Shown here piece after piece: positions 30,814 to 36,059 of a DNA stretch of 36,059 bases. The notes under the pieces are model-generated. The model was not told where the DNA came from. It made no database searches and saw only the letters and a list, made by a program, of their open reading frames with translations. Numbering within the stretch: position 1 is the first letter of the stretch; every line of letters starts with the position of its first letter. The DNA comes from a virus, in IMG/VR virus record IMGVR_UViG_3300042549_000398, positions 1-36,059 of that record, one strand, 5' to 3'. The translations under genes and the position numbers were made by a program.

Positions 30814-31227
30814 TCAGCTTTCTTTAGAACGTCTAACTACCACGGTGTATTCACTTTCGACATTTAGCCCCTTGGGGTAAAGGTCAGGATTCTCAGCGAG
30901 AAAGTCTTTCATGTTTGTTTGATGAAGTCTTTTCTCTAACAGGCCAAATGCTCCAGTCTCTTCGATGAAACTGTAGATTGAATCCCAATCATTTGTCCAA
31001 TACCGTGACTTAATTGAACGCATGATCGTGCCATGTGGGGTGCGAATGCTGTCGGCATTCATGTCTTTGCATACGTCTAGCATCTCTTGCGCTAACACTT
31101 GCATTTGAGCTTCAAGGTCTTGATCTTCAGCTTCAAACACTTTCTTATTCGCAGATCGCTTGTCGCGTATCTTGATGTAGAGTGAAGTCAGTTTATCTAA
31201 CGACACCTTCTCTTGAACTTCTTCCAT
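30814..31227 (-). CDS. Conserved phage protein, first gene after the leader promoter
   Basis: A 137-residue mostly helical protein. An N-terminal coiled coil (LYIKIRDKRSANKKVFEAED ... LEAQMQVLAQEML) is followed by SIRTPHGTIMRSIKSRYW. Then come NDWDSIYSFIEETGAFGLLEKR and a beta end (EYTVVVRRS). A helical hairpin followed by a 'T-x-x-GT' strand and W-D pattern is reminiscent of Gam-like or recombination accessory proteins, but this is only a resemblance. The ATG (31227) has a good AGGAG 8 bases upstream (31232-31237) and lies ~20 bases after the structured leader. Being the first gene of the downstream replication unit, it is probably made early and abundantly. Confidence 0.65.
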   Translation of the reverse strand: MEEVQEKVSLDKLTSLYIKIRDKRSANKKVFEAEDQDLEAQMQVLAQEMLDVCKDMNADSIRTPHGTIMRSIKSRYWTNDWDSIYSFIEETGAFGLLEKRLHQTNMKDFLAENPDLYPKGLNVESEYTVVVRRSKES

Positions 31228-31247
31228 CTGATTCTCCTAATAAAAAT

Positions 31248-31347
31248 GTGCGGCAATGACAGTTCACATAAAGCAGTGTGTTTTAGCGTTTCGTCCGCTA
31301 ATAAGGGATTTATAACGGCGCTAACCCGTTACCCATCACTGCCACAC
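31248..31347 (-). ncRNA. Structured leader RNA candidate with four-stem junction
   Basis: On the minus strand the RNA would begin about 31347, just downstream of the promoter. Its first 12 bases, GUGUGGCAGUGA, pair with 31259-31248, UCAUUGCCGCAC, forming a 12-bp closing stem (10 Watson-Crick and 2 G-U pairs, extendable by 3 more). Inside are two perfect 6-bp hairpins with 7-nt loops (31331-31313, UAACGG/CCGUUA; 31301-31283, UUAGCG/CGCUAA) and a 4-bp hairpin (31280-31265). The two non-identical positions in the closing stem are G-U pairs only in the minus-strand RNA; in the plus-strand RNA they would be C-A mismatches. It is followed by a U5 run (31246-31242) and the ribosome binding site of the next gene. 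It could be an attenuator, a processed small RNA or an RNase III site. Confidence 0.5.
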
Positions 31348-31353
31348 AACTCG

Positions 31354-31381
31354 AATATAACACAACATTTGACAATGTCAA
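31354..31381 (-). promoter_or_regulatory. Near-consensus sigma-70 promoter for the leftward replication unit
   Basis: On the minus strand there is a perfect -35 TTGACA (31381-31376), a 16-base spacer, a TGT extended -10 element and the -10 box TATATT (31359-31354, 5 of 6 to consensus). The predicted start is G31347, seven bases downstream, exactly where the leader stem begins. The -35 overlaps the stop codon of the helicase gene. This is the only long intergenic gap on the minus strand, so it is the expected promoter for the genes from 31227 to 26653. Confidence 0.85.
31369..31381. promoter_or_regulatory. Palindrome over the -35 box, candidate operator
   Basis: TTGACAATGTCAA is a perfect inverted repeat of 6-bp arms around one central base. 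One arm is the -35 hexamer. A dimeric repressor bound here would block the promoter; the small HTH protein (29649-29918) and the winged-helix protein (33200-33556) are candidates. It could be accidental, since the -35 itself supplies half of it. Confidence 0.45.
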
Positions 31382-34314: not shown

Positions 34315-34583
34315 GCTTGTCCCCTTGCTCGGATGGCGGTGGCACATTCTTCGCCATCATCCATGTACTTGTTCATTGACTCACACACCTTCGCACATGC
34401 CTCACGCTCAAGAGACATTGCTACATCAACTGCTTTCTCAGCCGCTTTCATTGCGGCATCATAAAATCGCTGATGCTCATGTTGTGCAACTAAATTGGCA
34501 AAGATTTCAAGGGTTTTAATCACATTTTGTGGTTGGATAATCCCTGCCTCATAAGCCATCTTAATGATTTCATCTTGTGTCAT
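34311..34583 (-). CDS. Conserved hypothetical phage protein, 90 residues
   Basis: A helical protein, MTQDEIIKMAYEAGI at the start, then LEIFANLVAQHEHQRFYDAAM, and ending REACAKVCESMNKYMDDGEE followed by CATAIRARG. The C-terminal 'EREACAKVCE ... ECATAIRARG' pattern is very common in small uncharacterised phage early proteins. ATG 34583 is preferred to an upstream codon at 34616 because it overlaps the stop of the sigma-like gene as ATGA. Three cysteines occur in the second half. The function is unknown; coupling to the micro-ORF on its other side suggests a shared expression unit. Confidence 0.7.
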   Translation of the reverse strand: MTQDEIIKMAYEAGIIQPQNVIKTLEIFANLVAQHEHQRFYDAAMKAAEKAVDVAMSLEREACAKVCESMNKYMDDGEECATAIRARGQA

Positions 34584-35305
34584 ATATTGTCCAATCCTTT
34601 TGTGTACTTCTTCCAAATGTCTTTAGCGCACATGCCCCACAGATCGCCTACCAATTCCTTTAGCTCTTGGTACATCTCGGGCTTGTGTACCTTCAAGTTT
34701 ATAACCCACGTTGCATCTTGAAGCGCGGGTTTAAGTTCTTGCCATAGTTCCTTCTGTTCAGGAGGCATGGTCTTTTCTCTGTAGTGCATTCGCTGTCTAC
34801 GTTCTACGTCTTCCCGCCATTCCTTCTGCCGTGCTTCAATCTCGCGTTTCTTTTGTTCGGTTGTCTTGTAATACTCGGTGGCATAAAACTGCCTCAATAT
34901 CTCACTACGAAATGGATGCTTCATCTTGCGCATGGCTCTAGCTTCGATCTGCCTGATGCGCTCTCTTGTTACATCAAACCTTTTGCCAACTTCTTCTAGG
35001 GTGTAGTCGCAATCCATTTGGATACCAAACCGCATCCGCAATACTTTGGCTTCCCTAGGGGTCAGGCTGTCCAACATCTCTTGCATGTACTCGGCTAACT
35101 CTACCTTGTATAGTTCTTCTTCGGGGTCGATGGTCGGCTCTTCCTCGTATGGTAGGCATGGGAACTCAGGCAACATTGAGTCTTCTTTGTACCCATGGTA
35201 GTAATAAACTTTGATAAGCTCTTGGCTTGCATCCGCAAGTGTGCCGTAGGGTATGGTATGCCCTTTGTACGTGCTACCGTGTTGCCTTCTTTTAGCAAGA
35301 GCCAT
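34580..35305 (-). CDS. Sigma-70 region-4-only regulator with charged C-terminal extension
   Basis: A 241-residue protein when started at ATG 35305 (GGGA 6 bases upstream; a start at 35317 would add four residues). Residues ~77-140 are a sigma-70 region 4: LTPREAKVLRMRFG, YTLEEVGKRFDVTRERIRQI, then EARAMRKMKHPFRSE. They are very close to E. coli RpoD as recalled and keep the -35-reading helix (TRERIRQIEA). No region 2, 3 or 1.1 is visible; the first ~75 residues are unrelated (Tyr/Glu/Pro-rich). After region 4 comes a highly charged helix (KTTEQKKREIEARQKEWREDVERRQRM) and a ~65-residue tail. It should bind RNA polymerase beta flap and/or TTGACA DNA but cannot melt promoters alone, so a competitor, appropriator or replication-linked switch is likely (inference). 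Confidence 0.85.
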   Translation of the reverse strand: MALAKRRQHGSTYKGHTIPYGTLADASQELIKVYYYHGYKEDSMLPEFPCLPYEEEPTIDPEEELYKVELAEYMQEMLDSLTPREAKVLRMRFGIQMDCDYTLEEVGKRFDVTRERIRQIEARAMRKMKHPFRSEILRQFYATEYYKTTEQKKREIEARQKEWREDVERRQRMHYREKTMPPEQKELWQELKPALQDATWVINLKVHKPEMYQELKELVGDLWGMCAKDIWKKYTKGLDNI

Positions 35306-36059
35306 AGGTTTTCCCATACCCTGATTCGCAATTTAGCGGTAACTCAAGCGCCCACTTGGGTCGCACGCGCATACACATCTCTACGTATTCTTGCGCAGTG
35401 TTAGCCTCGGGTGTCGGCGCTATGCAAGCAATCGCATCATGCACAGTCATCACAACCTTGTACTTCTTGGCAATCAGTAGCATCTGCTCACCGATCACGA
35501 TACGGGCTAAGGCTTGGCATACGTTCTCAATGACCTTGCCGCCATAGATTCGGTTGGGTATCGTAGCCTTGCCCCGCTTGGTGTCGTACACCATTTCAGC
35601 TTTGCCTTCTTCACTCTGAAGTATGCGCAGGTTCGGATAACGCAAGTACAAACCATTGGGTAGAAGGATGCCGTTGTTTCCTTCGATCTTTAATATCCCA
35701 TCCCTGCCCAATCCCATTGCGCTATTACGCAGTACGGCTTCAAGGGCTAGGCCCGCTTTCTTCCAAAGCGCAGTAATTTTCGGATACGTTTCGCGGTAAG
35801 TGTTGATAATCCGTTTAGCTTCATCCAATTCAATCGCCACATTAAAGTTCTTGAGTTGCGCTTGGAATTTGGCCGCCCCCATCCCATACCCACAACCAAG
35901 GATAGTGGTCTTACCAACGAATCTCTCATCCTTTGTAATCTCCGAGGCGTCCTTGCCATAAATAGCAGATGCCATGATTTTGTATACATCCTCGCCACGA
36001 TCAAATGCCTCCACTAAGTCGTTCTGTTCCGCAAGCCATGCTAGCGTACGGGCTTCAAT
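35292..36059 (-). CDS. Family A DNA polymerase, C-terminal part (truncated by window)
   Basis: The frame is open from the right edge (36059) to TAA 35294-35292, giving 255 residues of the polymerase domain. The edge begins IEARTLAWLAEQNDLVEAFDRG, the continuation of motif A (normally D-Y-S-Q-I-E-x-R). Next is the motif B helix, KTTILGCGYGMGAAKF (near 35870-35920), with the conserved Lys, Tyr and Gly of the nucleotide-binding helix. Motif C is VMTVHDAI (near 35433-35456). The glutamate of the usual HDE is Ala here, a form I recall from other phage polymerases. It should replicate the phage genome with the PrimPol-helicase. A 3'-5' exonuclease, if present, lies outside the window. The end overlaps the sigma-like gene by 14 bases. 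Confidence 0.93.
   Translation of the reverse strand: MEARTLAWLAEQNDLVEAFDRGEDVYKIMASAIYGKDASEITKDERFVGKTTILGCGYGMGAAKFQAQLKNFNVAIELDEAKRIINTYRETYPKITALWKKAGLALEAVLRNSAMGLGRDGILKIEGNNGILLPNGLYLRYPNLRILQSEEGKAEMVYDTKRGKATIPNRIYGGKVIENVCQALARIVIGEQMLLIAKKYKVVMTVHDAIACIAPTPEANTAQEYVEMCMRVRPKWALELPLNCESGYGKTYGSC

Follow-up and report, generated by a model that had tools for sequence, protein, structure and literature searches.

The ~100-nt structured RNA described here, encoded in the window (by which we mean the whole 36,059-nucleotide stretch of viral DNA analysed, IMG/VR record IMGVR_UViG_3300042549_000398), belongs to an RNA family that is widespread in phages, occurs in many freshwater phages of betaproteobacteria and had not been catalogued before. 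Computational analysis established the family and its paired core, its RNA strand, its position at a predicted +1, the lack of a fixed downstream gene, and its gain, loss and replacement among relatives. Judged from comparisons of sequences, family and fold are almost certainly real. As to what the RNA does, we tentatively prefer, a little short of an even chance, a role as a gene-independent 5'-terminal leader, which would seal the end of the transcript and carry a core of two loops, probably for contact with a host factor; a main function exercised in cis at the 5' end may come close to an even chance.

An earlier note on this DNA had described a four-stem RNA beginning exactly at a strong promoter, and its sequence, coordinates and promoter are as claimed (Table 1). 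In a consensus scan the promoter agrees with consensus at 11 of 12 positions and it is conserved in homologous leaders; the predicted start is the seventh base past the -10 box, which is normal for a +1. Comparison with shuffled controls, which the note had proposed, bore it out: RNAfold gives the minus strand from 31347 to 31248 a minimum free energy of -39.9 kcal/mol, as against a mean of -24.6 for shuffled sequences (z -4.73; none of 200 shuffles folded as well), and the opposite (plus) strand reaches just -28.2. The R1 covariance model matches the window at 31348-31247 with 92 bits. The sequence does contain the 12-bp closing stem, both G-U pairs included, and RNAfold lengthens it to 15 bp, with P2 stacked directly upon it. 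The two reported hairpins of 6 bp with 7-nt loops fared differently, one being P2, which is conserved in 46 homologous leaders, and the other, at 31301-31283, falling in a hypervariable linker. The reported 4-bp hairpin corresponds to a conserved hairpin, P4, although its register is probably shifted; pairing of CAC with GUG around UGCUUYAU is more likely because the covariation of CAC/GUG to CCC/GGG and CGC/GCG in P4 stems fits that register. The U5 said to follow the closing stem is not a family feature, as runs of at least four T within 12 nt of P1 occur in 7 of 81 elements, as against 4% of random sites. The 137-aa protein encoded under the leader has a weak Mu Gam-like similarity (Pfam Phage_Mu_Gam, E 0.009, below the curated cut-off). 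Elsewhere in the window, minus-strand positions 34580-35317 encode a protein of 245 residues that has a sigma-70 region 4 domain and is a possible phage-encoded transcription factor.

Table 1. Features of the leader RNA locus in the window, and sites of two known RNA families in other loci
Feature	Position	Strand	Description or evidence
Whole leader RNA element	31248..31347	-	predicted +1 at 31347; fold and z-score, R1 and R2 model matches
Sigma-70-type promoter	31354..31381	-	TTGACA 31381-31376, 16-nt spacer, TATATT 31359-31354
P1 5' strand, 15 nt	31333..31347	-	begins at the predicted +1
P1 3' strand, 15 nt	31248..31262	-	compensatory changes in A2 and A4; phylogeny-aware test
P2 hairpin	31312..31332	-	7 bp; loop GUUAGCG 31325-31319; loop-adjacent G-C pairs almost invariant
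Variable linker	31279..31311	-	6-bp hairpin 31301-31283 private to the window phage, unconserved (A2)
P4 hairpin	31265..31278	-	CAC 31278-31276, loop UGCUUUAU 31275-31268, GUG 31267-31265
Shine-Dalgarno AGGAG of first gene	31234..31238	-	outside the fold; from sequence
137-aa gene under the leader	30814..31227	-	phrog_13900 ('minor head protein' annotation), E 2.9e-23
int-alpA and Betaproteobacteria-1 sites	L140:588-655, L102:1481-1598	-	Rfam matches

When viral contigs were scanned with the 137-aa protein, at least 599 stretches matched; most of the best 80, which were taken further, have the same leader after the promoter and ahead of the start codon, and in it GGGTTAGCGCC and CACTGCTTYATGTG have not changed. 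The 46 distinct homologous leaders were aligned without regard to structure (alignment A2), and the consensus fold that RNAalifold derived from them has P1 with 15 bp, P2 with 7 bp and P4 with 3 bp, with both-side (compensatory) changes in 12 of 25 pairs. In these leaders 98.4% of cells are paired, double-changed cells number 80 as against 15 in shuffles, and covariation stands at 0.320 as against 0.172, a value that none of 500 shuffles attained; shifting the pairing partner by one to three columns destroys it. Only P1, P2 and the hairpin at 31278-31265 are conserved across this set. In a broader alignment of 98 members, which was fitted to the structure and is hence biased towards it, 594 double-changed cells were counted (157 in shuffles). 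A test independent of that alignment exchanged the P1 flanks between elements, the best junction offset being chosen for real and swapped flanks alike, and gave a pairing score of at least 12 in 90% of real but 8% of swapped combinations. A MAFFT alignment of the diverse set (A1) misaligned P1 and was excluded from the statistics.

Covarying pairs were also found in a phylogeny-aware test of all pairs, which we built after R-scape with a fixed register taken from the invariant loops and two junction types assigned by best pairing. In the two junction subtypes, 12 of 24 and 9 of 24 structure pairs were significant at E <0.05, and not one significant pair fell outside the structure in either. 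The close set A2 by itself yielded two significant pairs, since it varies too little. The earlier note had argued for selection on the RNA from its two G-U pairs, and the compensatory changes and pair counts strongly support it: G-U cells are much more frequent than A-C cells (141 as against 9 in A2; 171 as against 30 in A4) and the transcribed strand is more stable than its complement in 74 of 81 elements, which together indicate that selection acts on the RNA of that strand. Neither an absence of covariation nor a folding energy like that of shuffled sequence, either of which would have spoken against the claim, was observed; a transcript start far from 31347 was checked indirectly, through the conserved spacing from the -10 box.

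The conserved core consists of P1, P2 with the loop (G)UUAGC(G), here called L2, and P4 with the loop UGCUUYAU, here called L4. L2 reads GUUAGCG in the viral set, and bacterial variants found with the covariance model keep UUAGC (UUUAGCC, CCUUAGCAC). L4 is present in all 143 elements found by pattern, the pattern itself having demanded it, and is kept in the model-found bacterial variants. L2 stands at a distance of 7 from the junction in 57 of 81 elements, a constancy that suggests a fixed geometry. Few nucleotides are conserved at the junction, and the hypervariable linker ranges from 16 to 45 nt across the family. A kissing contact (AGC:GCU) between L2 and L4 is only suggested, because the loops vary too little for covariation. 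Linkers with at least six consecutive bases identical to the 3' end of 16S rRNA number 15 of 81, as against about 3 in shuffles; CCUCCUAA or CUCCUUUC, which resemble that 3' end, occur in the linkers of L020, L031, L033, L037, L062, L068 and L085. General anti-SD sequestering, an idea prompted by CCUCCUAA in the linker, was set aside, as it holds in some lineages only and the motif is also found where no Shine-Dalgarno (SD) sequence follows.

The loop pattern alone was found in at least 119 viral stretches. A covariance model of the 46 leaders, the approach that the earlier note had proposed, retrieved 94 elements at E <1e-4 from a broad set, the next match appearing only at 0.2, with E-values that are rough; family size and diversity are lower bounds, being counts from scans of collections. 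Rfam 15 at the gathering threshold placed no family on the element in the window or in 14 other loci, and at a relaxed threshold nothing meaningful on the element in 12 sources; relaxed matches to McaS, snoRNAs and cspA lay far below threshold and were rejected. Three different elements compared by blastn with 50,697 deposited phage records gave short chance matches and no credible copy. A tRNA-like structure was likewise discarded, as ARAGORN reports no tRNA in the window and only tRNA-Met genes, away from the element, in two loci. Two leads from the literature, one on the glutamine riboswitch of a marine methylophage and one on small RNAs of Bordetella, turned out to have no connection with the element.

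Across 84,980 species genomes the exact pattern gave eight matches, of which five are betaproteobacterial, one is in Vreelandella (Halomonas-type) and two are in contigs of metagenome-assembled genomes (MAGs). In the order to which the Curvibacter strain belongs, the covariance model matched 2 of 399 genomes, and in the Achromobacter strain's family 5 of 268; a Variovorax strain is also among the bacteria found. The two MAG contigs, one from Aeriscardovia and one from Clostridia, carry the same phage sequence as the Vreelandella contig, at 100% identity over 7 kb (L200, L201, L202), which suggests contamination shared by the assemblies.

Promoter and +1 positions are predictions throughout, and they place the element at the very start of its transcript. 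Among 38 strong -10 boxes near P1 (from 8 nt inside it to 40 nt upstream), 31 sit 5 to 7 nt before P1, with a peak at 6; such a box lies 2 to 13 nt upstream in 34 of 81 elements, as against 1% of random sites. From this spacing the RNA appears to be paired from its first nucleotide, and, as in a 5'-terminal stabilising stem, few or no nucleotides are left unpaired at the predicted +1. About half of the elements have no good -10 box just upstream, which tells against the leader reading, and these often follow another structured module. By simple gene calling in phages whose genes mostly run one way anyway, the next long open reading frame (ORF) is on the element's strand in 60 of 73 elements outside gam-type leaders, and an opposite-strand ORF upstream with a same-strand ORF downstream is found 17 times, as against 5 for the reverse arrangement. 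An intrinsic terminator lies within 200 nt past P1 in 2 of 59 cases, the same as at random sites, and the elements do not carry a stem with a conserved U run of the kind expected of a terminator or attenuator (7 of 81). In the gam-type phages an SD sequence and start codon follow directly. Some promoters outside gam-type leaders (L086, L127, L133, L140) lack a -35 box; in its place stand palindromes resembling GTTATTAAC, which might hint at control by an activator or repressor.

The genes that flank the element encode Gam-like proteins, the terminase small subunit, primosomal proteins, primase, Holliday junction resolvase, single-stranded DNA-binding protein (SSB) followed by RdgC, and portal protein. 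In three loci (L087, L100, L130) it lies about 1.5 kb downstream of the start of the gam homologue, and in G004 it stands behind the capsid gene instead of before gam, after a terminator and with a -10 box of its own. Among 47 phage records with a match, 43 hold one copy and 4 hold two close together. Of 15 gam-type records without the element in the gam leader, most of them fragments (G002 is 60 kb), a search of the whole record found none in 14, G004 being the exception. In seven relatives (L024-L027, L048, L056, L057) a plain hairpin beginning at about +1, GUGGG...CCCAC or GUGC...GCAC, takes its place, and the homologous leaders of L015, L016, L018 and L019 have neither. This variation in position and downstream gene, together with absence or replacement in close relatives, makes a gene-specific riboswitch or attenuator unlikely.

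Other RNA-like features share these loci. A second recurring module, a stem AACACGCATGGGGATTG ... CAGTCCCCAGCCGTGTT with interchangeable inserts of 26-104 nt, adjoins the element on the same strand and occurs in 33 element entries (including L084, L086, L093, L103, L126, L133, L144, L146, L151 and L180). One extra match to this module lies on the opposite strand in L095, and the element core itself serves as the insert in L095, in L134 and, judged by eye, in L091. Minus-strand positions 3327-3442 of L117 match a tRNA model with 33.7 bits over 116 nt, much above normal tRNA length. Sites of int-alpA (RF02996) in L140 and Betaproteobacteria-1 (RF02932) in L102 follow the element on its own strand, at a distance of a few hundred bases; both are separate families and neither overlaps it.

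The preferred reading, a 5'-terminal leader, would work as follows. P1 would stack on P2, and the fixed 7-bp distance would bring L2 (UUAGC) near L4 (UGCUUYAU), so that the two loops probably touch, possibly through AGC:GCU pairs. The sealed 5' end would keep the host enzymes RppH and RNase E off the phage message and so may protect it from decay. The invariant two-loop core would either give the fold a compact shape or attach it to a conserved factor of betaproteobacteria. RppH and RNase E are known to be hindered by secondary structure at the 5' end (review PMC3997798), and end-sealing appears to be the part of the mechanism best tied to the evidence, namely the pairing at +1, the replacement by a plain hairpin at +1, and the RppH/RNase E rule. 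Since a plain hairpin suffices for end-sealing, the two invariant loops need a further function; the single copy in most records also counts against a general stabiliser of mRNA, which would not predict it. It is because end-sealing leaves the invariant loops and the single locus unexplained that a core facing a host factor is proposed. A more far-reaching proposal, which we consider possible but lean against, is that the element is a host-directed phage effector whose two invariant loops would jointly present a single surface to a conserved machine of betaproteobacteria (RNA polymerase, RNase E/RppH or a defence system), exchanged between phage families as an accessory RNA gene and often chained with other interchangeable RNA modules.

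The same observations can be read in favour of an RNA acting in trans, a discrete molecule of about 80-105 nt that would either be synthesised as a transcript's 5' end or be cleaved from it, with its invariant loops binding a conserved host factor such as RNA polymerase, an RNase, or a ribosomal or defence component. It would fit that a record usually has a single copy, that the site of this copy can differ between members of a single clade (G004), that the loops do not vary among unrelated phages, that the element is present or absent like an accessory, and that bacterial matches are almost confined to betaproteobacteria; the T run that follows P1 in a few phages also speaks against the leader, as a small RNA could end there. 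We nevertheless regard it as unlikely, though deserving some weight, given that terminators follow the element no more often than they do random sites, that SD and start codon directly follow in gam-type phages, and that the element shares the strand of the downstream gene. Start at +1, strand agreement and rare terminators lead us to favour the leader over a self-terminated small RNA; many elements have a promoter of their own, and few a terminator after P1. Of the four functions that the earlier note had offered, 5'-end element and small RNA are thus both carried forward, whereas gene-specific riboswitch and attenuator are not supported.

Processive antitermination of the kind known from the put sites of phage HK022, in which the nascent RNA would bind RNA polymerase and let it read through the terminators of one main phage operon, seems improbable. 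HK022 putL lies just downstream of a promoter and is about 70 nt long, and put consists of two stem-loops (PMC9378689). Like put, the element is a short structured RNA near a phage promoter, present in few copies per genome, specific to a host lineage and with its first paired base near +1 (PMC9378689); it occupies the promoter-proximal end of phage operons, and some copies are found where replication genes meet terminase genes, or immediately after the terminator of a capsid gene. Its architecture is unlike that of put, as a closing stem, P1, encloses P2 and P4 with their invariant loops. Relatives also do without the element in the same operon, and in the window operon there is no strong internal terminator for it to read through: none is found on the minus strand from 31248 to 26822, nor before the end of the gam-to-primase genes, and the first strong one, at 26593-26571, guards convergent structural genes.

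A ligand-sensing riboswitch or attenuator that controls the 137-aa gene we consider very unlikely. Position in the leader, a junction fold with conserved loops and the ability of the linker to pair with the SD sequence in some relatives (for example L033, L037 and L068) would suit it; yet the element precedes unrelated genes with no coherent regulated function, few junction nucleotides are conserved, and no expression platform, whether terminator or SD sequestration, is conserved with the aptamer. Of 38 distinct linkers just 10 pair significantly with the SD sequence, the linker of L001, a near-identical relative of the window, not being among them, and attenuation was rejected for want of a conserved terminator. 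A DNA-level palindrome serving as a protein-binding or recombination site, though in keeping with presence and absence and with the differing positions in related phages, is scarcely credible in view of the excess of G-U over A-C cells and the greater stability of the transcribed strand.

Among known RNAs, 5' stabilising stem-loops of the ompA/papA type share pairing from the first nucleotide, and it is for such a plain hairpin that relatives swap the element; the present fold differs in being much larger and in its conserved two-loop core, common to unrelated phages. GOLLD and ROOL RNAs are several hundred nucleotides long. They resemble the element as conserved phage-borne RNAs with possible loop-loop contacts, whereas the element is about 100 nt and has no Rfam match.

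More than a hundred phage contigs carry this RNA family, which Rfam does not cover. As a strongly covarying object of 100 nt with two invariant loops, it allows its partner to be sought directly. The leaders of freshwater phages hold modular structured RNAs that annotation centred on proteins has overlooked. If the element seals or redirects transcripts, it would be a means, acquired by many lineages, by which phages counter RNA decay or the control of transcription in the host.
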